NCBI GenBank assembly: GCA_030062745.1
Contig: CP099844.1
Location: forward strand, 24,304,596 to 24,368,595
DNA length: 64,000 bases
Reading direction: 5' to 3'
From: Capitulum mitella
Taxonomy: Eukaryota > Arthropoda > Thecostraca > Pollicipedomorpha > Pollicipedidae
Shown here piece after piece: positions 22,001 to 63,200 of this stretch. The notes under the pieces were generated by a model. That model ran no database searches, was not told the origin of the DNA, and saw nothing but the letters and a program-made list of their open reading frames with translations. The first letter of the stretch is position 1; the number at the start of each line of letters is the position of its first letter. The translations under genes were made by a program, and so were the position numbers.

Positions 22001-25000
22001 GTTGACTATATTGGGGACCGATTTTTCTGTAGCCATGCCGAGATTATCCGGACCTGTTTGCCATCAGACGGACCGTTACCCGTTTTTTCAATTTCCGCGC
22101 AGCTTTTGTCGGCGATCACGGGCCGGCCTTGGGGTAGCGGCTCCTTTCACATGGCACGCTTGTGGGCGGGGCATTCGATCCCCCGAACGGAGAGCTCCCA
22201 TTGGCGGAGGTCTGCGCGCCGCACAGTCGGCCTGCATTGTTCTGACGCAAGATACGCCCACATGACGTACCGCTCGGCTCGGCCGGCAGCCGCCTGACAA
22301 CGCGAAATGCCTTTACCAGCTCCGACGTGCAAATCGAAGGCCGCGGCTTGGTGTCGAGCGGGCGCGAAGCGCTAGGAGGGCTGCGGGGAGAGGTTGACGA
22401 CAATTCGTGTGTCCTTCCGTAGCGTAACGGGGCCGGGATAGACGAGTCCACAGGTAGACATGTGGATTCCCTCCGTGGGACAATATGATATGGGTGAACA
22501 GAAACCTTGTGCGCATCTGTCAAGGTGGTATAGAATTCGTGGGTTTTATGCTTTGTTGTTTGTGCATCCCAAGGAAAACTTAGCTTCGGAGTGTGCAGGA
22601 GAAAGAACTCGGGAAATTTTGTTTTTGCAGTTGCTCGTGATTCATCATCGTCTGGATTGGACCAGTTTATGTGTTGTGTTTTGTTGTTTGTGAATCCCTG
22701 GAAAACTTATCTTCAATGCTTACGGGGAGGAAGAACTTGAGAATTATGCCGTTAATTGCTCGTGACTCATCATCGTCTGGTTTGGACGAGCTTGTGTGCG
22801 GTGTTCGGCAGCTTCAAAGTCTACAGCGTAAAGAATTAATGCTCTGCAAGTTTGCGGATCAACCGTTAAGCAGCATTTCCAAGACATTATTGCAGTTTGC
22901 GTGTCCTGATACCATTTGTGTAAAGCACCCCTCCGATGGCTAAAAAGCTTTATATTAGAAGCGGTAATAAAAAATGAATTAGAAAGGCGCCGTTGCCAGC
23001 CAAGGACATAGTGACGTTACTTGTACCGCAGGCAAGTTGCACATAATTATTGGGGTATTAAATCTTGCATAGATCAGGATGTACATTACGCTCTAGTTCA
23101 TTGCGCATGACCTATATGTTTCTCGTTAAGGTTCCAGGTGTTCAACATTTACTTTGGCTCTCCAAGCCAAAACACCGCTTTGGCCGAATGCCGTTGTGTC
23201 GGTGGGCGTTGTATGTGTGGGAGAAATATACGCAGGTCATGACGTTTGTCAAGATTACAATGTTTCCTGATGTGTTTATGCATGTCTTTACAACTGTATG
23301 ACAATATGCCTGAAATACCAATTATATATGGATGGACATTGCAAATATACATACGTACATACATCCAGGCTTTTAGCCATCCTTTGATTTGACATGGCTT
23401 GCTCCGCAATTTTTTAGATGATGTTCGCGTATATAAATAATGTTACTCACACAAGGGATAATATTTGACTATGTTCTTTTGGACATGTTAATGCGGGCAA
23501 TATTCGGAAGAACAGTTCGTGTCATGTTTGGACGAATGTTGTATGGTATGGTTACCTTCCAAGAGAAACGTTTCTTAGTTCGTTTTGTCTTCGTTGCAGT
23601 GCTAGCATGCCGTCTCGTAAAGTACATTGAATCAAGTATTGCTATAAAATTTGGTTGAATGGGGAGTATGTAATCTGCTGCATTTCGAAGTCGAAAAAGT
23701 AATGGAAATGCCTACATTGACCGAAACTGAGTCGTTGAGTCATGACATCCCGTTACGTGTCGGTCACGTCCATATTTGTCGCGGTCGTGTTGCGGTTCAC
23801 GCCTTTTGCGCGGGCTCACGACTGAAACCTGCGGGGGCGCGCCGGCGGCGGCAGTCACGACTGGCCTTCGATCGCGCCTCGGGGCACGGGCCGCCCCGCC
23901 CCGGCGGGAGCCGTCGGGTGCCGTCAGTCAGGTGCGCGCCGCCCCGGGAGATCAGGCGTCAGGAATATGTGAATCGTGATTTAGCGGGTTTTTTGGACGG
24001 TAGATTCCGCGTCACGAAAGGTGATCGAATGACAGGTTGTAGCGTCGATAGTGCGATTAGGATAAGGTTGTATATCGAGGGACGGACGTCTCACGTGGGC
24101 CGGTCGTCAGAGGTGGGACCGTCGCCAGCAAGGTCAGACGCGGCCACACCTGAGGCGCAGCCGACACCGACTCCGCCGTCGGCGGCGCGCGCGCGGGGAG
24201 ATGCGCCCGCCCACTCACCTGCGGCAGGAGGGTGCTGCGCTGGCGGCGCACGCTCTTGCGGCGCTGGCCGTGCAACAGGCGCAGCTGGAAGCCGTCCTGG
24301 TCCGGCAGCTGGCCGGCGGCGGCGGCGGCGGCGGCCACCAGGTCCAGCTCGTCGTGGGAGTCGGCCGGCCGGCTCGAGCTCGCCGTCCGAGCCGGGCTCG
24401 GAGGGCGTGAGCGCGCCGAGCGCGATCAGCGGCGCGCCCGTGGCCTCGTCGTCGGACGAGAGTGGCCGGTAGTCGGCGCGGCGGCGCTCCAGGTCGGCGC
24501 GCACCTTCTCCACCATCAGCTGGACGGAGGAGGCGCGCCGCGAACCGCGCCGCGAGCCGGCCTCGTCCAGCGAGCCGCGCTTCTTGGGCTCGGCGACGCG
24601 CAGGTGCGCGCGGCCCGTCTGGCTGGCCGCCATCGCCAGGTTGGCGGCGTACGCGGCGCGCTGGGCGCCGCCGGGTCGCGAGAGGCGCTCCACGAGCCGC
24701 GCGAGGCGCGGATCGTCGAAGTAGGCGCGGACGGGCGGGGTCCGGGACGAGTCGGGCGGCGCCGCCGGACGCACGTCCAGCAGGCTGTCGTCGGACGTCG
24801 ACGACGCTCTGTCGTCGGCGGCCGACGCGCGACATTTATCGGCGCCGTCCATTGCCGGCTGATGAGCGGCGCTCGTCGATTGGCTGCGGAGCTTCGGCGG
24901 CGGCGGCGGCGATTTGTCGGCGGCGACGGCGTCTTCTCGCGGCGGCGGCGGCCCGGTCTTCTGTCGACGGCGTCCTGGCTGTGGTCGAGCGTCGTTGGCC

Positions 25001-35700: not shown

Positions 35701-38700
35701 TCCGCCGCCTTAGCGCGTGCAGCAGACACGCAGTTGAATGCAGACAGGAAGACGCTCCCAGGCAGCCATATTGACGGAGTCAGGCGGACCTGTTAGACCA
35801 GCGATTCTTACCCCAGCTTACAGGTGTCCTCAGGAGTACCATGGATGATTTCCGGGTACCATTGAGGGCTGTATACGGCGTGCAGTTCCTCGTCAAGACA
35901 TACTACATCACATACGTTTTGTAACCGGAAACGGAGGTCTCTGAAAAAGGTTTTGCATCAGAACTCGTTATTGGGGAGTTGGCATGTGCTTGGAAGTACA
36001 CGGGTCAGAAAAAGTTGAGAACTTGCGCATTAGGTGGACGTATTGTGCCGGTCGCGCGTTGGATCGATGTGGGTCTCCGGCCGCTTACTTTTCGCGAAAC
36101 CGGGAAGATGAGGCACACTGGGAGGATAAGGCCTGGGGGGAAGATGTACCGGCAGGGCGGGTGAGGTCAAACGGAAGGATCAGGCTGATTGAAAGAATGG
36201 GACCGACTCGGAGGATAGGACGGAATGGGAGGATGAGGCCTGCTGAAGGAGGATGGGACCGACCGGGAGGACGAGGCAAACTGGGAGGATGGGGGCAGCT
36301 TGGTCCCATTTGTGGCCCATGCGGCGAGGGAATTTTCTTGTCTAGGATGGTCCATGACATCCACGGTTGTAGGATAGGTTAGGTACAAGTCAGCTGTTGA
36401 CAGTAACGCTTCCGAGGGACAGTTTTTAGCATTTTGTAATTGCGACAGTACGTTTTATCGTTCCCTTGACCCTTCCCGCATATGAAAATAATGCGTGTGC
36501 TTTTGTGAGATGCCCACGAAACAATATGAAGACCATCGTCGGCTTTTTGTACAGGAAACTCAAGGGTTGGTTGCCATATCTTTCATCGTGTTAGGCAGCT
36601 ATCGTCCGTCGGTATCACCAAGGCAGCTGAAGAAAGTGAATCACTGGCCACACTTCGCGAGCATGCACTGAAAGGCTGTGAGTTTTTTTTCTGTAAACAA
36701 ACATTTCATTTAGAGTTGTTGATTTTTGGTTCAAAGTAGGAACGTAGTTTGATGATAAACATTCATGTATCATTTACAGTCATTTCGAACTTCTGAGATA
36801 AAAAGCTATGTGCCAAGTGCAGTTGATTTCATAAGATTTCGTCCTTAAAGTACGTATATACGGAATATCTAGAAATAATCCAAATTACCTGCTTTACCTA
36901 TAATGTTCAGTTCTCCAAATTGGTGGGGTCATCGTCCTCCGCGCCTGGTAAACTAGTTTTACATTTCTTTAGCGGCTAGTGCTTCACATGTTTCGTTAGC
37001 AGGCTTCTTCCCTTTACATGCCAGCCATGTCGCCCTGGCGGATTGGTGGGAAGTGGGCAGACTGGCTTCTCCCCCCTAAACCCTTCATTAAACACTAAAA
37101 GAAAAGCCATGTGTTCAGCACTTGTTTTGCTTAAGCTTTGCCTTGATGTCGGGCGAAGGGTACCAGAAGGGGGCTTAGATCGCGGAATGTCTTAGATTTA
37201 GGAATTTTCTGGTATCATGTTCGTTTCATTCCTTTTTTCTAAGGTACGGATGAAACAATGATCGCTAAATAGCCGACTTTGTTCCAAACGCGTGGACACG
37301 AAGAGCAGTGCAACCGCAGTCCAGCATGCCAAAAAGATTTCAGAATTCGTGAAGCAAGCCGCTTCGTGTATCGTAATTTTCCATATAAGTCGGTGTATCG
37401 TTAAGGGTCATTGACTGCTAACTGATCGCATCAAAGTAGGTACGGAAAGGGAGACTTCACGAAGGATCCTCCCTAGTTTTAAAAGGCATTCTGGGCGATT
37501 CCGATTCTTAGTGCGCCCCGGAATCCCAGGAAATCTGCAGAGAGGGTTGACTAGGTCAAGATGGGCCCCTTCTAGCGTTTCGGGCCTTTCCGAAGCCGAT
37601 ATCTCTGCTTCTTCGCACGGTTTCATTTTCTTCTTAGCTTTCGTTTTTTATTCTATTTTTGCACGTATCGAGACCCTTTGGATCATGGAAGCTAGGAAAT
37701 AGTGTCTTCGTGCCGTTGTCGATTCGTCCCTGTTCCAGTGGCTGACGATGAATGCTTGAAACCTTTGTTTAGAATTTGAATCTTGATCGACGTAACGAGG
37801 ATAGAGCAGAGGCGATTGTTTATTTTTCCCCGCTGCGCATCGCCTACGTAACGTTTTTGTGGCGTACGTTATGTTGTGACGGGATCTGGTCTAGAATTTT
37901 CCGCGACTGAAATATTTACTAGATACAAGTACCACGTAAAATCGTTAGCTTGGCGACATTTTCTGACGAATGAAACGTTTGCATTCGCATCCCTGGGCCA
38001 TCGTGCCTGCAATCGGAGTAACGTAGTAATCCATGTCACCAGTTTCAAACCTGAGATACCCATTTGCTGTAATTGTTCGCCATGAAAGTGTGTGTGGAAA
38101 CAGATGTCGGTAAATGAACCGACGCATTATCCGGGGTTGCGTGACCTCGGGGTAGCGGAGTTTAGGGCTTGACGACGTTATCCGGATATTGCGCTTAGTT
38201 TAAACGCAATTTTCCAGTTGGCCTTAGCCTAACGACGTGACGAATGTGACGAAAACGACTTGTTTTGGAGCCTCATTGACGCCGACGCCCGGGTGGCGTG
38301 ATTCTCGCGTGCTGCCCAACGTCTTCGCCGTTGGGCGAGGTCCTGACCTTGCGCGCCATTTGTTTGACCTCAGCGGCGCGACGTCATTCTGCGTTCCAAA
38401 CACCGCGCTCCCTCGATCCGCGCCGGCGGCCGGTGCCGCGGCGACGTGCGCCGGCCGGCCACTTGCCGGCAACGAGCGGCTTCCTGCGCGGCCCCATGAC
38501 CAGTGTCGCCGGCGGCGGCGGCGCGCCGACCTGACGACATCGCGGCCGCGGCCGCCGTGTTTACGGCCGCCACCTCAGAGGTTCCGCTGCTGCGCGCCGG
38601 CGGCGTCGGACGCTGCCGGGAGCGGCGGTGCTGCGGGCGTCGGCCCGGCGGCCGGCGTTGTTTACCGGCGGGACTTCTAAGGGGACGTCGGCCGCGGGTA

Positions 38701-41700
38701 CGGGTGAGGTCACGCGCTCTGCGGAGATGACGGTGTCGTCAGAGTCGGAGGAATGCCGGGCGTGTTTGCTGATGCGCGGGCTGGCCGGCGGCCGCTGACG
38801 GCGCAGACGCTGACACTGCGCCGCACGTGAGCGGCTGGGGCGTGCGGTTGTCGGGAGGTGGCTGGCCTTACCCGGCACGTGAGCGGCGGTGGAGCGCCGT
38901 GGCGGGAGCCACGTTGGCCCTGCTCATCTCGTGATGGCCCCGTCCGTGTCGTGAGCGGCTGTGGTCCGCTGTGTCGGGAGCCGCCTCAGCGGCCTGCCGG
39001 GTCGCAGCACGGGGTGTTTCTCCGGCGCCTGGGAGCGGCGCAGAAATCCAGTGCAGTCCTGGGCAGTGCACTGGACGCCTTTCAGGCGTGTGCTGGCCTC
39101 ACGACTGCGCCGTCGGCGACGCAATCGGTGTTTTTCGGGCCATCTAGTGTGCTGGTGCCGGTTGACGTCAAACCAATGCCGATGTCTGGCGCCGTGACCC
39201 TGTGTACTGCCCTGCTGATACCTACTGTTTACTCAGACGATGCGCGACTTGCAACGACAGTAAATATTGCCGGCAAGCCGCCGCGTCGCTGGCACTAGGC
39301 TTATCGATGGCCTGATGCGCTGTGCCAAATATTTATGTATTGGAAGACAATGATGATGTTTCCCTGTGTTTTTATAAAGGAAAACGCAGGATGAAAGAAG
39401 ATACGCTCTTGTCACTCAATCTGGGCGATAAAAAAACCGCAGGTCTTCTTTGGTACATCCTCGTCTCGCCCGTTTTCTCTACGGCCTCTGCTTCGATGTG
39501 ACATTCACGCCCAGCGCCCTGTCTCCGTCGTGGCCACATATAATCAGACGACCTAAACTCCCGACAGAGGGGCTGAGGGACGCTGAGGGCTGAGGGTCAC
39601 ATATAATCAGACGACCTAAACTCCCGACAGAGAGGGACTGAGGGACGCGAGCACCGCACGGCGGGCTTTGCAGCCCCGCCCACCAGCGGCTCTCCTGCGG
39701 TGGCGGCGCTTCTCCGGTGGCCTCGTCTGTTAATCGGCCGCATTCGGGCCGCTGTCGGGGACATCTGGTTTTGATCACCGCGTTACTGCTGATTGTTGGA
39801 TGTGATGTAACAGGGCGGCGGCGGGCGGCGGGCGTTCCGTTGCGTTTCCTCTGGAGGCAAGATGGACTCGCACGTGCGGTTGCCGTCACGTGTGACGGTT
39901 AGGTGGCGCCGGAAGGAGATATGCATTATGTCAAAATGTCACCATCTTTACAAAATGTCATCATCTTATAGACAAGCATGCCTATAAGATGATGCTTGCC
40001 CATCGTACAGGATTGGCAAGCATCTATAAGATCTTATAGGCAGTCATCTATAAGATGACGCTTGCTCACCAGACCTGAACCTAGCTTAAAGCTAGGCTGA
40101 TGTCTGGTGCTGTGTGTTTGCGGCAAATATTGATGTTCATGTGATGGATTCTATTGAACTTCGTTCGTTCAGAACGCATGGATTTCAGCCCCTGTGAGAC
40201 GCCGAAAGGACAGAGCTCGCCGGGCTCCCTCCATTGGAGGGAACCTGGCGATCGGAGAAAAAATAGATGTTTTGTGGGAAAACTGACGTGGTATCGGCAG
40301 TTGGCTCTCGGCCGCTGCGCGTTTGAATTTGGTCTATGGGCCTCGTTCTATGTGACATTAATCATGTATGGCGGTACATACAAACAAGTTTCATAACATA
40401 GGCTGTGGGCTCCGCGACAGGGAGACGCTGGGTACTGGGATGCATCTCCCAGCCATTTGATTGCGGGATTATGCCCCCCAGTAATTGATCAGTACAGGCT
40501 CCAGTATTATATTCGAAAACCCTTTGTTGCCGTTGCTGGATATTGCAGAAGACCCATGTACTTTATTCAGAGCCGTTTAAGAAATAAGCCTTTGCTGCAG
40601 TTGTTGGATATTGCAGAAGACCCATGTGCTTTATTCAGAACCGTGTAAGAAATTTTGAGTAGGGTGGATTGCAATAATATGACCGGTCCTCAAATATGGA
40701 TTCGCCTAACCTACCCCAAATTCTGATTTCTCCTCTGATTTAAGCCACTTTCTTTTTGTGTCCAGATGAAAAACGACTAAAAACGCGTAACGAACTGGCT
40801 ACAATGTATGGCGTGTGCCTAAAGACGGGAAACCCTCCCGTGGGAGGATTTAAGTACTGCAAGCAGTTACGATTCAGAAAAAAGTCACGTTGGGCTTTTT
40901 CACAAATGATAATGCACCGAAAGGAAACAAAACCTGCGGTGCTTGTTGCTTACAACAGCTACAATCTCTTAAAGTCCAACCTCTGCCAATCCCTATATGC
41001 CTGTGGTATATCTTGAAAGACCATCACCTGATAATCCTGCATTTTAGAACAGCTGTGAGCGGGGAAAGGAAGAAATGGTCAGTGGGGAGAACTTTTCTCG
41101 AATGTGGGGTATTTGCTTCCCCCTCCCCCCACACACACATACTTATTTTAAAAAAGTTAAACATGTTAAGTTACTTAACATGTTAAAAAAGTTCTTGACC
41201 ATTTGACGTTTTTCCTTCCTGCTGTTGATTCTGACGGTAAATGGCAACTATGTTGATATTAAAAAATGGAGCAATCCGAGGCAGAACTATCGATGGGCAT
41301 CTGCATACTAGCGTGTGTGTGGCGGCTTCAGAATTAGGATGGATATAGAAAATGTCTTCCATAAGAAGGTATTCGTCTTTTGTATGTTACCGAATAAAAT
41401 TGAAATGTTGGAAAATAATGAAACGTGTGTTCTCATTCTTTATATCGTTCGCTACAGATGGAAGAGGAAGGACGAAACCACGGGAACAGGGTTTGGGGTA
41501 ATTTGCGATTGACGTCGCCTCATCATTTTACAAATGGTGACGATGCAACAGCTTGCCTTGCACATGACCACAGTAAACTCGTCTTGGCCGTCAAAATTTC
41601 GTCATTTTCAGAAACGAAAGATGAGCTGTTGGGAAACCTAAGGGTAGAGACAGGAATAGGTTTAGCGGTAGGTGTAGGAAAGGCAAGGCTAGTTAGATTA

Positions 41701-49806: not shown

Positions 49807-52800
49807 GTGAGTCCGGACTTCAGAGCACTGGTCAGGCTCCAGCAGCCTGCTGTCAAACCGGGGCGCCTCATTGAAATCGTTGATGAGGATCAAATGGAAA
49901 TGTTCCTTAACTTCGTTTTTCGTTATTCAGTGGTAAAAAGGGGTGAGGAGGCATTTCGTTACTGACGTGAAGCCAAAAAAATGAGTGAAGCTGGGAGTGC
50001 TCCGAAATCAAAATTTGGATGGCCGATTTCGTTGCTAAAACGTTGTCAGAGTATGGACGAGTTCACGTTCACGGCTATGTCAACGATCATGCTGCAGTTG
50101 CACGTTTTTGTGGCATTGTCATAAACGGACGGAGGAATATGAGTAGCACGCAACTGACTGTTTTTGTGTTGCTTTTGTCTGTGACGGTACATTTTTATTT
50201 CTAGTTACAGGGCACGAGTCAATCGTAAGAAAACGTTTTTCATGGACGACACCAAAACGATATCCTGTCAATATCTCGTACTTGTGGTGAATGATGAATG
50301 ATTTCTAAGATGAATGCTTTCCGGTAAAGCCTAACAGGCCTCTTGTGCTTCATGTAACATTGTCTTGAGTGGGCGTTTACAATGAACTCGGTATTACGCA
50401 ACGGCTGTGTCGCAACTACTCATTGTTTCGTTTGTAATGGGCCCTGACAAGGCACATCCGACTAGGATGTCTTCTGAGAAGATGAGAACTATCCTGTTTG
50501 TGAGGGTACACAGGCCGCACATGCGCAAAACCATTCCGTGTCTTATGAACGCGGAGCCACGACAGCACATCTAATGTCTTCTCTCGGTTTATTTATCCCT
50601 TAATATAGGCATTCCATCCAAATTCCATACGCGCGCACTTATGAAATGATTTCTGCGTCCCACCAGAGGCCTCTACCCCCTGTCTTTGCTCTCTGCGACT
50701 TAGCCGTCTCCTTCCAGCACTTGTTCATAAAGCCTAATCCTGGCACGACAAATCACTTCATTTTGATCCCCTTCCCCACCCACACACAAACACTCAGACT
50801 CACACACACACACACATACACACACATGCACCACGACCAGGTCTTCCTGACGAGGTACTGTCGGCCCAGGTGGCCTCTGCCTCGCCGGTGGTGGACGTGG
50901 GGCCGCCGTGCCGACCGCGACACGTGGTCGACCCCAGCCGGCGCCTGGCCGAGCGGCGGCAGCGAGAGTGGCGCCACCTGGACAGCGACATCCGCCTGAT
51001 GCGCGCCCTCGCCGACATCATGGACTCCAAACGCATGGACGACAGGAACACCGAGTTCGACAAGTGAGTGGCGCTGACGCTGATTCCGAGTTTCCGCGGC
51101 AAAACGACACAACCGGTAATGCGAATATGGTTTCCAGCGCAATATCCTCTGGTGTTTATACTTTTACCGGGTACTCATTTTTGGTTTACTAAACAGTTTG
51201 CTGAGAAGCAAATGCAAGCATGGGGAATCGATTACGGCTGAAATGCATGTTTTTATATCGCAAAGCAGTTTATTACTCATGAATACCCCGAAAAAAACAA
51301 TCAGTAACCACCTAGTGGAAAGGCATTGAAGAGCCACGTAAATCGCCTAATGCCCTGCAGAATAGCGCCTTTAGGTGGCGTCCTCTTGGTTTTCACACCA
51401 CTTCTGAACGATAGATAAGCCCGGGTTTGAGGAGAACAAAGGACTTTGGTTGGACCCTCGTCACGTTTGTCTGTTTGCGCCGCTCGGTCCACGCACTGTT
51501 CTGTTTGAAATGCGATTTGCCGTCTTCCCAGACCTGTGAGTACCCCTCTTCGCCAAGTCCTGTGCACCCGGCCCCTGACCACTGACCGGCTCGATAAGAT
51601 GCGGCCCCTGACCACTGAACGGTTCGATAGGACCCGGCCCCTGACCACCGACCGGCTTGATAGGACCCGGCCCCTGACCACTGGCCGGTTCGATGAGACC
51701 CGGCCCCTGACCACCGACCGGCTTGATAGGACCCGGCCCCTGACCACCGACCGGCTTGATAGGACCCGGTCCATGACCACTGACCGGTTTGCTGAGACCC
51801 GGCCCCTGCCCACCGACCGGCTTGATAGGACCGGGCCCCTGACCACCGACCGGCTTGATAGGACCGGGCCCCTGACCACCGACCGGCTTGATAGGACCGG
51901 GCCCCTGACCACTGGCCGGTTCGATGAGACCCGGCCCCTGACCACCGACCGGCTTGATAGGACCGGGCCCCTGACCACTGGCCGGTTCGATGAGACCCGG
52001 CCCCTGACCACCGACCGGCTCGGCAGGTACAGGAGGCTGCTGAGGGCCAGCAGGGCGCGCAGTGCCGAGTCGCCCGTCCCGCTGCCGCCGCCGCCGGACC
52101 CCGACCCCACCAGGGACCAGAGAGGAAAACCGGTATGACCGTGGCGCGACCGTGCCCACCGGGCACAGCTGCACCTGACCTGCATCACCCGAGTCGCAGT
52201 GGAGAACGCGCCATCGTTCCTTGCCTTGAAAGCCCGACCATGTTCCGAACACTTCAACGTTGAAGGAGTAACCCCAGCTAGTGTTTTCACTCAGCGCGAG
52301 GCACGCGTTTGTAATGTTCATAGTAGATCAGACCCTGCCGCTCCCTTACCCAAACTCCCCGGCTGTTGCAGCTGCGGCTGTGCCAGCGGACGCCGCGGCC
52401 GCGCGCGCGCAGCTCCCCGGGCGCGTCGCCGCTGGACCTGTGGCCGGACGGCTGGCTGCTGCGCCACCGGCGGCAGAAGGCGGCGCGGCAGCGGCGGCGC
52501 GGCGCCCGGTCGCCGACCGCCGGCCGCGGCCGCCGTCTCGCGCCGTCGCCCGCCGGCTCCGCGGTCACAGGTCAAGGATCAGAGGTCACAGGCCAAGGGT
52601 CAGAGGTCATAGGTCGCAGGTCCGACTCGGGCGGTGAGAGCCCGCAGCGGATCGTGCTGCCACTGGTCGACCTGCACGGTGACCCCGAGGTCAGGGGTCG
52701 GCTGCGCAGGTACGGCATGGTACTGATGGCCGAGAGGTCCGGGTGTCATTGTGGCGCATGGAGGCAGACCTGCTGCGACTAGCAACGAGTCAACGAGTCG

Positions 52801-53382: not shown

Positions 53383-53479
53383 TCAGTCATCCACCACGGC
53401 CGGGTAGTGCGAGGTGAGGCAACGGCCGCGGTGCGAGAACACCATGAAGGACGGCCGGTGGCCGACCGTGTCCCAGGTC
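53383..53479 (-). CDS. MMGT1: EMC5 exon 3
   Basis: 97 nt encoding TWDTVGHRPSF, FSHRGR and the tail, with TGA at 53385-53383. Too short to appear in a long-ORF scan; found by its motif. Confidence 0.93.
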
Positions 53480-55863
53480 CTGTCGGAGGCGGCGGTCGCA
53501 GTCAGCGCCAGCACGGAAAACGGCGCGTTCGGCAAGTCCGATCAGAACGGCACGGGGTCAGACCAAACAGTCCGTAACCGGACGAAGGCCGCGAAGGCGG
53601 GACGCGACAAGACAGTTCGGACAGTCACACTGAATTCCTGGTCAGCTTCACAAGCCCAAATGGTCCAGATGGGTTGGATGAGAAATGACTAAGCTCGACG
53701 CTTAGCCGGACTACCAAAACACTTGAAGACCTCGACAACCGGGCGTCTTGGACAAGCCAACTGAGCTTTCAGGCCGGAAAGGTTACGTGTGTCCCTACGT
53801 GATCTGTAACGCATACAAACGCGAAACATACAAACGTACAAAGATACGAAACAAGGAAACAAAAGCAAACCAACACAAGAATACACACATTTCTCAAGTA
53901 AATGGCAAAATGTGGAAACAGTGGTGCGCCCCGTCGTGACATTTGCCTGTCCCCCGGATTTCAATATTCTAAATTTTACGAGCGTGTTTCAAGCAGTGGT
54001 CTGTTTGCGTACATAAATCATCATACAACACACACACGCCTCTACGATGTAGAACAATCGTAAACTTAATCAAACAAAACAAAATCCTATGCCCAAGTCA
54101 AGTCTGAATTATCCGAAAACGTACCAATTCAATACTGATTAAGTATTTGCCCGTCGCTTTCAACCCAACGCTACACAATGTCTTCCAGTCGGCCATCGCT
54201 GGTTTCAAACGATTTCGCCCACACCGCAAACAAGAGGCTAGTCCTGTTTTCACAGAACTGAACCAGCTTCCTTTAACAGCGCTGTAGACGACAAAACGCA
54301 TGCAAAATAAAGCCCCGCGGACCAGGGGTATCCGAGTAACCGCCAACAAGCGGCACGGAAAGCTCGGATCCAATGTGGCATGGTAGCAGGTAGTCTTACA
54401 GTACGGCCCGTCCGGGCGTACTTACTTCTCCTGGAGGTCGACGTTGGCGCGTATCTCGCGGAAATCTCCGGCGATGAACAATATGGCGTACATGCTGAGT
54501 AGCAGACTGATCACACCTTGGACGATAATGTCGGCCGGCAGTGCCGTGAACTCTTGCTCCGTCAGCCTCAGGTACGCACGGTCTGTAACGGGACACGAGC
54601 GATGAGTAAACCCCTGTTCCATTACACTCAGGTATGCAGGGTCTGTAACAAGACAACAGTGGTGAGTGAACCCCTGTTCCACTGCAATCAGGTACACACA
54701 GTCTATAACAGCACACGAGCAACGTGTGAACCCCTGTTCCACCACACTCAGGTATGCACGGTCTGTAACGACAATACAAAAGATGAGTGAACACCTGTTA
54801 TACCACAATCAGGTATGCACGATCTGTAACACGACACGAGCAACGAGTGAACCCCTGTTCCACCACCCCGGTATGTACGTCTATCACTACCCGTATGTCC
54901 GGTATCACTGTCTGTAATGACAGTGATGAGTGAACTCCTATTCCACTGCAATCATGCACGTACACAGGACACAAGTGAACTTGTTCCACTACACTTGGGC
55001 ATGCAAGGTTTGTAACAGGCCACGAGTGGCGAGTAAACTCCTGTTCCATGATGTTTAGGTATGCACAGTCCTTAATGGGCCACAAGTGATGATGAACCTC
55101 TGATCTGCCACAATCAGATATGCACAGTCTGTAACAGACCAATGAGTAAACCCCTCTTCAATAAGCCTCAGATATGCACAGTCTGTTAAAGATCACAAGC
55201 AATGATTAAACCCATTCTGCCAGCATCTGGTATGAGCTGTCTTTGAGAGGGTATGAGCAATGAATCAACCCATGTTTCACCAGTCCCAGAAACATACAGT
55301 CTGTACTAGGACACAAGTGACAAATAAACCACTGTTCCACCAGAAAAAGTATGCACAGTCTGTAAAAAGGAAACATGTGATGAGTGGACTCTTGGCCTGC
55401 CAGCCTCAATAAGGCACACCCAGCCTCAGTTAAACTGGACAGTGTATGATGGTATATTTGATTCCACAAGGAGCCTGCTTCACTTGTGTAGGTTTGCCTC
55501 AAATGGCAGTCTGCAGAATACTATCAATGAATATACAAAAATTGTTCTTGACAAATTTCATAAAACAGAAACAAGTTCCAAATTTGAATAATGGGTTTGT
55601 GGTCAGTTATATTTTTTGTCACTGCTCACGATTTCAAAACAAGATTAGGCTACAACAATGGTAATGCTTCAACTGACAGGAACTGTTACTATGAGGACAT
55701 GCATATGGTACCAGCCAGAGTAAATCAAATTAACACTACTTAGCAAATCAAGCAGCAAAGTAGACACAAGACACTGATGCTTACGTTGTGTTGCTGAGTA
55801 TGCCGTATGAAGCAGAGACAAAATTCCACACATAAACATAATTTTGTAAAACAGGGAAATCAT
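53383..55863 (-). CDS. MMGT1: EMC5/MMGT1, ER membrane protein complex subunit 5 (complete)
   Basis: Minus-strand join: 55863-55785, 54582-54426, 53479-53383; 110 residues. Known role: EMC5 is a two-pass subunit of the ER membrane complex that inserts tail-anchored and multipass proteins; the vertebrate name MMGT1 comes from proposed magnesium transport. The protein shows TM1 at about residues 4-24, the hallmark HRAYLRLTEQE block (residues 27-37), LPADI, TM2 at about 43-63, IAGDFREI, a WDTVGHRPSF block and FSHRGR near residue 93. The order and spacing match human MMGT1, and the N-terminus has the same length up to the SATQHR junction. The C-terminal tail is about 20 residues shorter than human. 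Intron phases are 1 and 2, with donors GTAAGC and GTAAGT. The first intron is a 1.2-kb block made largely of tandem copies of its own acceptor region. Confidence 0.95.
53480..54425. other. EMC5 intron 2
   Basis: 946 bp. No other gene or regular repeat was noted. Confidence 0.6.
54426..54582 (-). CDS. MMGT1: EMC5 exon 2
   Basis: 157 nt encoding RAYLRLTEQE, TM2 and IAGDFREIRANVDLQE. Acceptor TTACAG, donor GTAAGT. Confidence 0.96.
54540..55420 (-). repeat. About 14 copies of a 60-bp unit derived from the EMC5 intron-1 acceptor and exon 2 start
   Basis: Acceptor-equivalent positions recur near 54583, 54643, 54703, 54763, 54824, 54912, 55010, 55070, 55129, 55183, 55239, 55301 and 55360. Each unit holds a TTACAG-like acceptor, then exon-like sequence ending in CTGAG, then CAGGGGTTCACTC. 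The first four copies stay open in the exon 2 frame. Copies farther from the exon are more diverged and variable in length. Confidence 0.92.
55785..55863 (-). CDS. MMGT1: EMC5 exon 1
   Basis: 26 codons plus 1 nt from the ATG at 55863-55861. It encodes TM1 and SATQ. Donor GTAAGC. Confidence 0.92.
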
Positions 55864-60207: not shown

Positions 60208-63200
60208 GTGAGTACGCGTGCATGCCTCATGACTGCTGAATCTGGATATTTCCTTAGTTTTTCCTGAAAAGCTAGTGGTGGAAGCATGTCAGAAAGCATT
60301 TTATTCTACTGCTCTGAGGTACATGTACGCCCAGCCGGTGCTTCTACAGCCCGCTACGCTGGACCCGCCCGGTGTCTGAAGCGCTGAGACGCCGCCGTGC
60401 TGTCAGGTTCCGGCGCATCTTCTCCGTGGGCTCGGCCGGCGTGTCCACCTACAATCCGAACTCGATGGAGGCCACCAACCAGTGGCTGTACGAGGACTTC
60501 CTCGGCCTCGCGCCGGCCGCCAAGGGCGGCTCGCCGCACGAGTTCACCATCCTCGTGCGCAAGGGCAAGAAGACGGAGACGATGCGCTTCTCGAGCGAGC
60601 ACCGCGCCGAGCTGATCACCGAGACGCTCCGCTTCCGGGCCGGCTTCGGCGAGCCGCAGGAGGAGGCGTTCGTGAGTACCCAGCTCGGGAAACGGGCGCC
60701 AAAGGGAGCTGGGTTTGCCGACGCTGCGATACGATGACGTCAAGGGATTTCCGCAGGTCATGGTTTTCGGGGCGCATTTCTGTTGCAGTACTGCAAAGGG
60801 AAATAGGGACGCGACCACGTATTCGTGTGTCATTTTCCAGACGTTGTAGAAAAGCCGGTGTCAGCGTGGTTTACACACTGAAGCGGACATGCCTGCTTGT
60901 GAGCGTTTAATCACTATTTTTGATCAGTGATTCGGTACAACGCTGGGTGGGCAAAAAGTTTGATCACGTCGTTCTTTGTGTTGTTTTTGGCCGCTTTGGG
61001 GGATTTAATTCCCCTTGGGTATGGTAGTCATTTGTTCTGACAGCAATTAAGTCATATGGAACAGGTCATGAACTGATAGTTGAAGTTACATTGCTTGCAC
61101 CTCTTGCCGTGCCAACGTTAGTTGTTCTTAACCGCAGGGGGAATATCGGTGCTAAGCGGTGATAATTCCTGTGTCAGTGCAGAATTTCCGCTTTACTTAG
61201 ATACAGCGTATCTACTGCGGAAATTATCGTGTTTTCCTCGCTAGTGTCGTTGATTCACGCCTTTTGTGACTCACCAGGACTGTAATCCTATCAGGGAGCT
61301 AATCTGAATGTGCGGTCGTTTAGACAAAGCACGCAGATAAAGTGCGGTCTGTCCCTTATTCTAACGGATTATGCATCACATTACATTCTGCTCTCCGTAT
61401 TCTCCAACTTGGAAATGGGGAAAATAAGACCGTAGTGTGCGACCCGGATGTGCGGACGCCACCGCTGTGTTTCCGATGGCGGCGACGCGTTGTCATGAGG
61501 ACCCGTCCGCGGGTCCTCGGGCTGGGTCGATCCGCGCGTGTCGTGACACCCCGGTGACGGCCGGCGCGTCTGCCGACAGCGGTGTAACGCGTTCACTCGG
61601 GCCGGGTCGATCCGCGCGTGTCGTGACGTCCCGGTGACGGCCGGCGCGTCTGCCGACAGCGGTGTAACGCGTTCAAGCACCACTGGTCCGAGAGCCGGCA
61701 GCCGGTGGTGCTGGAGGCGGGCGTCTGCTCGCTGGACCAGCTGGACCCGGCCACCGGCACCCTGGTCGCCTCCTACTACTACAAGGATGTGGAGGCGGTG
61801 GTGCCGGTCTCCGACTACCCGGGCGGCTTCGTCGTCATCTGCGGCAGGTTCGGCAGGATGGTGAGTGCGCTCCTGCCAAGCCGGCTGACGTTCCGCTGGC
61901 AGTTGGTGTCAGCGTTCGTCATGTGAAATCCGTTGTGTGTTCATTCGTGAAGTCCTTTGGGATCGCTTTCTCGTGTGGATTGTGACTTATGAGAGATTTT
62001 CTCGTGATACGCCAGCAATTAAAGATGAAGAAGTCATCTGGCTAGCAATTTGTAGATACTTTAAGCAATTCAGTGCGTGTGCTGGCACGCCTTTTGACCG
62101 CTGTTCTATCGCGCGGTCGAGTAGACGCACCAGACATGCTACGCCGGACAGTGCTCGTGTTGTACGACCTGTTGGGGCAGGCACAGATTGAGTGTCTGCG
62201 ACAGCTAGACGTATCACTGGGCTCTCTAAAGACCTCAGCACATCTCCATCTGAGGCTATGTTCCCACCACCATTACCTATTCACCCTGTCTAATATCTTG
62301 ACGTCAGTACGTGGTAATCCTATCAAACATCGTTATGCCGCCCGCAGCACCTGTCCACGCTTAGACGCCATTTGACCCAGAAGTCGGGGTGCCCTTAAAC
62401 TCCAGTCAGCAGCCTGTTCATCCGTCTAATATGATAATGCCTCGTGCAGCAACTCTTCACCCTGCCTCACTTGATGACGCCGCCCGCAGCACCTGTTCGC
62501 CTCTGAGAAGCGGGACACGGTGCTGCGGGTGATGGCCGACAAGGCGGCGCGCTGTGTGGGCGTTACCGTCTCCGTCAGGAAGGAGCCCATCAACTTCAAC
62601 TACTTCACCGAACACCGGCTGGGCCACTACAGGTGCGGACGGCGGTCGGGCGGGGTCAGCGGTCGATGGCCGCCTGCGGCCTCGGGGCGCGGTTTACGAC
62701 GTGAGAACTGGGCCGCGGCGGGTGAGGGAGTTTCTGGCCGCAGAGTCCCGGGGACGCTGCCCACAGGCGGGGCTTGTCGCGGGGGAAGCCGGTCAAGTGG
62801 TGTAGCGTTATGCGTCGTGGACGGGCTTCGCTAGAGCGACGCTGGAACATGCGTCTCGCTTTTTTCTCTCCGACGCTTTTGCATCGTTGGTTTGGTTCGT
62901 TGTTTCCCGTGTTGTTTTAAAATTATTTGTTTGTTCTTTTGTGTTGGATTCATGTTTCTCCAAAGATTGACCGCTGCGTCAGATATCTGTCAAGTAATCG
63001 AGCTCATAAGCTGGATAGAATTCGAAATGAACAAGATAACAGTATGATGTAATTAACACGGGATCCAAACTGTGGTGATGCAGCCAGCTCCAGGTCCGTT
63101 TTTCTTTGTTTTCCACGTGAAAAACTTCGCGCTGTCGCCGCGCCTCATCGCTCGTCAAGGATACCCCTGTTGTTTCCTGTCGCTGATTTACATTGGAAAG

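Follow-up and report, generated by a model that had tools for sequence, protein, structure and literature searches.

A tandem array of 3' splice-site copies in intron 1 of EMC5 in Capitulum mitella resembles the "mirages" of lancelets

The window, the whole 64-kb stretch of DNA analysed here, has a GC content of 52% and comes from the 477-Mb, 16-contig genome of Capitulum mitella. A gene on its minus strand is, judging by the protein it encodes, EMC5 (MMgT family). Among the matches listed for its exon 2, three of the four PDB sequences are EMC5/MMGT1 (about 1e-8) and the fourth is an unrelated LRR protein (0.41), while Pfam assigns the joined peptide to MMgT (5.6e-10) and the exon 2 peptide has a single match in the genome. 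The coding part of exon 1 (55785..55863, minus strand), set by translation and boundary, encodes MISLFYKIMFMCGILSLLHTAYSATQ plus 1 nt from a presumed start codon and ends at the donor AAC|GTAAGC. Intron 1 (54583..55784, minus strand) is 1,202 nt long and of phase 1. It is followed by exon 2 (54426..54582, minus strand), which encodes HRAYLRLTEQEFTALPADIIV...DLQE(K), and by a likely exon 3 with a putative acceptor (53383..53478, minus strand), which was placed by translation and reads TWDTVGHRPSFMVFSHRGRCL...stop. Because intron 1 is of phase 1, the spliced protein reads H-RAYLRLTEQ and not D-RAYLRLTEQ. The start of exon 2 is conserved with human EMC5 (RAYLRLTE here, RSYMRLTE in human), and the acceptor presumably in use for this exon is taken from the protein sequence alone.

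The most conspicuous feature of the gene lies in intron 1, which was originally described as being made largely of about 14 tandem copies of its own 3' splice site and the start of exon 2. Both TRF and a profile search bear this out. The array, including the true unit, runs from 54545 to 55440, so that the earlier span of 54540..55420 holds approximately and its ends are shifted. It is made up of the true unit and 14 decoys of about 60 bp, each combining about 22 nt from the end of the intron, acceptor included, with nucleotides 1-38 of exon 2. The intronic part (55440-54583) occupies 858 of the 1,202 nt of the intron, or 71%. TRF reports a 60-bp period at 54567-54866 with 75% matches. A profile search of the 64 kb recovered the true copy and 13 decoys between 54545 and 55382, of which the 12 copies (out of 15) used to build the profile match by construction; the other matches listed had E values of only 0.2 and 0.7. 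The outermost decoy, c14, was delimited by hand (55384..55440, minus strand) and is marginal, being missed by the profile and 53% identical to the true unit. Wrap-around alignment of intron 1 gave a score of 864 for the true unit, which rose to 1,073 once the consensus was refined; 20 Markov-shuffled sequences aligned to that consensus without refitting reached no more than 348. The outer span from this alignment is not trusted because its gap costs are permissive.

All units lie on the minus strand. The true unit, c00 (54545..54604), has 22 nt of intron end with the acceptor GTTACAG and 38 nt of exon 2. The three decoys nearest to it, c01 (54605..54664), c02 (54665..54724) and c03 (54725..54785, with a 1-nt insertion in its intron-derived part), all keep the acceptor AG and a frame open into exon 2, as first described, and their use would add 20, 40 and 60 amino acids, respectively. 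Every decoy beyond c03 has a shifted or stopped frame, including c04 (54786..54845), which retains its AG. In the region of c05 and c06 (54846..54973), c05 is rearranged and has a TTACAG out of register, c06 is truncated, and neither c07 nor c08 (54974..55091) has an acceptor AG at register. The AG returns in all five of c09 to c13 (55092..55383), which are without CpG. In total the AG at register is retained in 9 of the 14 decoys and missing from five of those beyond c03. The additional proposal of micro-exon-like segments finds no support, with the donors hypothetical and the frames beyond c03 broken.

That the repeat derives from the boundary of EMC5 exon 2, as had been proposed, is shown by several searches. 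With the true copy left out, a profile built from the exon-derived columns of 11 decoys matches 54582-54546 with E = 2e-5 in the window, and the match begins at base 1 of exon 2. Nucleotides 1-38 of the exon score 34 against intron 1, where the maximum in 500 shuffles is 30, while nucleotides 39-76 and 77-114 score 14 and 14, which is background; homology of the decoys to exon 2 thus ends by nucleotide 38. A dispersed satellite or transposable element, to which the repeats might have aligned better, finds no support: within the sensitivity of a DNA search that passes over very common words, the array has one match in the 477-Mb genome, which is itself, and the unit pattern has five, all inside the array (a reversed control pattern gave 1 chance match). 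Alternatively, an independent intronic minisatellite could have been captured later to form the beginning of exon 2. Capture would account for the several columns at which most decoys carry one state and the exon another. The start of exon 2 encodes residues conserved in human EMC5, however, and conservation of RAYLRLTE with RSYMRLTE marks the exon sequence as ancestral. In addition, differences between decoys and exon are most numerous at the third position of codons (p = 0.017), whereas codon-position bias among the decoys themselves is not significant (p = 0.12), a pattern that in this test of only 38 columns fits coding constraint on the exon alone. Capture is therefore scarcely credible.

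The same codon-position result bears on whether c01 to c03 could be functional alternative acceptors, adding 20, 40 or 60 residues near the start of exon 2 to give length isoforms. The retained AG and the frame open through exon 2 in these three decoys, together with a 60-bp unit that is a multiple of three, are what such a function would look like. Open frames are nevertheless expected from recent copying of a 20-codon unit free of stops, and the decoys have no significant codon-position bias. Other boundary arrays in this genome have units of 55, 71 and 80 bp, none of them a multiple of three, and the amphioxus papers discussed below, in the extracts available, suggest that splicing is undisturbed by arrays of this kind (PMC3087553, PMC3902484). 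We regard functional use of c01 to c03 as very improbable.

The decay of the copies gives some indication of the history of the array. Identity to c00 from c01 to c07 is 0.72, 0.70, 0.75, 0.72, 0.55, 0.53 and 0.69, and from c08 to c14 it is 0.70, 0.70, 0.68, 0.62, 0.62, 0.63 and 0.53. Across the 14 decoys identity falls with distance from the true unit (Spearman -0.66, p = 0.011), with the exon part giving p = 0.027 and the intron part p = 0.06. The CpG count of the decoys drops in the same direction (-0.63, p = 0.015), from 7 in c00 to between 0 and 4 in c01 to c07 and 0 in c08 to c14. The gradient that had been noted from the letters is therefore present, and because identity and CpG both fall with distance the distal copies look older. 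They do so unevenly, as there is a dip at c05 and c06, c07 to c10 are nearly as close to the true unit as c01 to c04, and c01, the copy nearest to the exon, has 0 CpG. We infer the age of the array from such sequence decay. The further suggestion of repeated expansion out of the exon finds no support in that form, since most decoys share derived states that are absent from the exon. In the T codon of LTE, which is conserved in human EMC5, a derived G stands at the first base in 11 of the 14 decoys, and a derived T at the second base, likewise in 11 of 14. Most decoys thus descend from a copy that had already diverged, and the array grew mainly by copying its own diverged units. It also has a two-unit higher order. 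Pairs two units apart are alike (c01/c03 78%, c02/c04 80%), the array fits better as a 120-bp repeat in TRF (81%), and some pairs further apart are alike too (c01/c07 78%, c04/c09 79%).

The window contains a second array of this kind, on the plus strand in DNAJC13/RME-8, where the exon starting at 61660 was identified by Pfam RME-8_N (4.1e-18). The true unit (61596..61675) is preceded by one decoy copy (61516..61595; TRF 96%) made up of 64 nt of intron end with the acceptor and 16 nt of exon, and the two are identical at 77 of 80 positions. As 80 is not a multiple of three, splicing to the decoy would put the transcript out of frame. The two-copy DNAJC13/RME-8 array is probably recent and the EMC5 array old.

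Structures of this type have been described in amphioxus, where duplications of exon boundaries were termed "mirages", were found with copy-number differences between haplotypes, and were proposed as a route to new introns in the portions available of the original report (PMC3087553). The lancelet examples given in these extracts are Adh3, the globins BflGb6 and BflGb9, troponin C and PGBD5 (PMC3087553, PMC3902484), with units of 60 and 108 bp in PGBD5, in whose report troponin C is cited (PMC3902484). As far as these accounts go, the likeness is close. The EMC5 array is also a minisatellite-like tandem duplication of an intron-exon boundary, amphioxus mirages sit at 3' or 5' splice sites with splice signals in many of their decoys, the EMC5 unit of 60 bp falls within the 10-160 bp range of amphioxus, and the PGBD5 copies are imperfect, like the EMC5 decoys. 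The host here is Capitulum mitella (Thecostraca) and not a lancelet, and the EMC5 decoys are only 39-80% alike compared with 81-100% for the BflGb6 units. Amphioxus mirages, according to the same extracts, are known with haplotype length differences, somatic instability and RT-PCR, whereas the EMC5 array comes from the sequence of one assembly. Since the array is tandem and minisatellite-like, spans a real boundary and keeps the AG in 9 of 14 decoys, its sequence marks it as a very probable mirage outside lancelets, a known but rarely reported structure. Among the matches listed in the open-access literature, the term was used for this structure only in the two lancelet papers (PMC3087553, PMC3902484), an ascidian paper had the word mirages only in an unrelated cited title (PMC7710358), and no paper brought together barnacle, minisatellite and intron. 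Intron gain by duplication of a proto-splice site is a related process in that splice signals come to lie in series and coding sequence is made intronic; there a new intron arises within an exon, while in EMC5 an existing intron is lengthened at its boundary.

Minisatellites make up 3.7% of 20 sampled 10-kb stretches of the genome, and tandem arrays were also surveyed at other genes. Genome-wide profile matches of three families, at least 276 (61 + 86 + 129), served as the source, the myosin search having scored 65 of 203 candidates and the kinesin search 122 of 133. From these, 13 loci holding 78 exon matches were picked for exon density, with the ends of profile matches as stand-ins for exon ends. 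They contained 22 arrays, 11 larger ones found by self-BLAST and 11 short ones found by TRF. Five of the 22 span an exon end, three strongly and two weakly, and none of the short TRF arrays does so, although one lies inside a myosin exon. One of the strong arrays is an acceptor array in a CCT gene (L036:2177-2862) with 11 upstream decoys, 10 of which keep the AG, with tracts that are pyrimidine-rich by eye. Two of these decoys equal the true site exactly from -16 to +20 (36 nt), and the protein, as read from the sequence, requires the last acceptor of the series. A myosin donor array (L038:5503-5901) has about 8 units of 45 bp and runs to the end of the fetched stretch; CCAG|GTGGGC occurs in it six times, and its AGGT sites, each a potential donor or acceptor, number 13. 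The partial text of a report on polyubiquitin UBC (PMC10809524) describes tandem dual-specific AGGT sites that resemble this array in having equivalent splice sites in series, except that the UBC units are whole coding monomers that are stochastically spliced, whereas the myosin array is known from sequence alone. The third strong case is a kinesin acceptor array (L034) with 76 of 103 positions identical and the acceptor site TCTCCCCAG|ACCCGGG. The two weak arrays, with scores of 31 and 32 under the 99.9% null of 33.8, both lie in CCT genes, at an acceptor in L035 and at a donor in L036. In the formal end test the 99.9% null is exceeded by 3 of 155 match ends, of which one (L034) was scored at an incorrectly assigned AG, and by 0 of 155 mid-exon controls; the highest value in the null is 57. 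Alignments at L035, at the L036 donor and at a further acceptor in L038 are uninformative because they covered overlapping sequence; the evidence for the L035 and L036-donor arrays comes from self-BLAST and the end test. Three candidates were rejected as boundary arrays: the array in L033 stops before the acceptor, and those at L034 2181-2504 and L031 543-727 look intronic only.

These counts also bear on where such arrays arise. Uniform placement would have 7.9 of the 22 arrays spanning an exon end, against the five seen (P of as few, 0.11), and only 227 bp of array lie within exon matches compared with 971 bp expected (P = 0.001). For the 11 larger arrays alone, 5 span an exon end where 6.2 are expected, and 168 bp fall in exons against 802 bp. 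Arrays are not concentrated at exon boundaries, and they are depleted from exons. Splice boundaries might instead be duplication hot spots, with transcription-coupled breaks or R-loops as possible causes, and not merely tolerant sites; if none of the 11 larger arrays may extend more than 60 nt into an exon, the five that span an end do exceed a mean of 2.7 (P = 0.11). The sample is small, and since fewer arrays span exon ends than uniform placement predicts there is no enrichment at boundaries, leaving hot spots a very improbable explanation. On the ratio of 3 strong and 2 weak arrays among 155 ends, we consider it reasonably probable that tandem duplication across boundaries is a pervasive form of intron growth in this genome, affecting about 2-3% of exon ends and supplying series of near-identical 3' splice sites.

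For EMC5 itself, the array is very probably a decayed mirage, a minisatellite that arose when the sequence around the 3' splice site of intron 1, including the first part of exon 2, was duplicated in tandem. It would have begun with a single duplication of about 60 bp, caused by unequal exchange or by slippage during replication. The acceptor next to the exon would still have been paired by the spliceosome with the 5' splice site downstream, and it is presumably through such exon definition that the exon-proximal site wins. Because this acceptor keeps being used, the extra copies would be intronic and nearly neutral. More slippage among them would lengthen the intron, mutation, notably CpG loss, would erode the older copies, and the exon-side copy would stay intact because it is protein-coding. 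Splice choice and copy-number instability at the array are presumed in this account. Across the genome, arrays may arise without preference for boundaries, against a background rich in minisatellites, with selection purging them from exons and letting them persist across splice sites, where they would be tolerated because splicing discards the extra copies. In our reading, neutral birth of minisatellites with removal from exons is the simplest account. The arrays in EMC5, DNAJC13 and the further genes sampled point to a general route of intron lengthening, and as natural series of near-identical 3' splice sites 55-60 nt apart they could serve to test which of these the spliceosome selects.

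Rfam at its gathering thresholds had no match in the 64-kb window. By eye, no exon of a known protein could be tied to the repeat pairs at 22543-22805, 36099-36293, 39532-39648, 40518-40653 and 51566-52022. The last of these is a 33-bp array of 13.8 copies with several frames open that ends beside CGGCAG|G, and it could be another boundary array. A 63-bp tandem pair at 39532-39648 (93%) contains CCCGACAG, and a 68-bp tandem pair at 40518-40653 (90%) has TGCAG motifs. Outside the window, a 24-bp tandem array in myosin coding sequence (L038:3295-3353) is the sole one of the 22 surveyed arrays to lie wholly within an exon match. One stretch of the myosin profile (about 377-436) is matched several times on contig C15 (about 16.42 Mb) and on contig C16 (about 5.45 Mb), a pattern also seen in muscle myosin genes that carry alternative exons; such exons are typical of arthropods.
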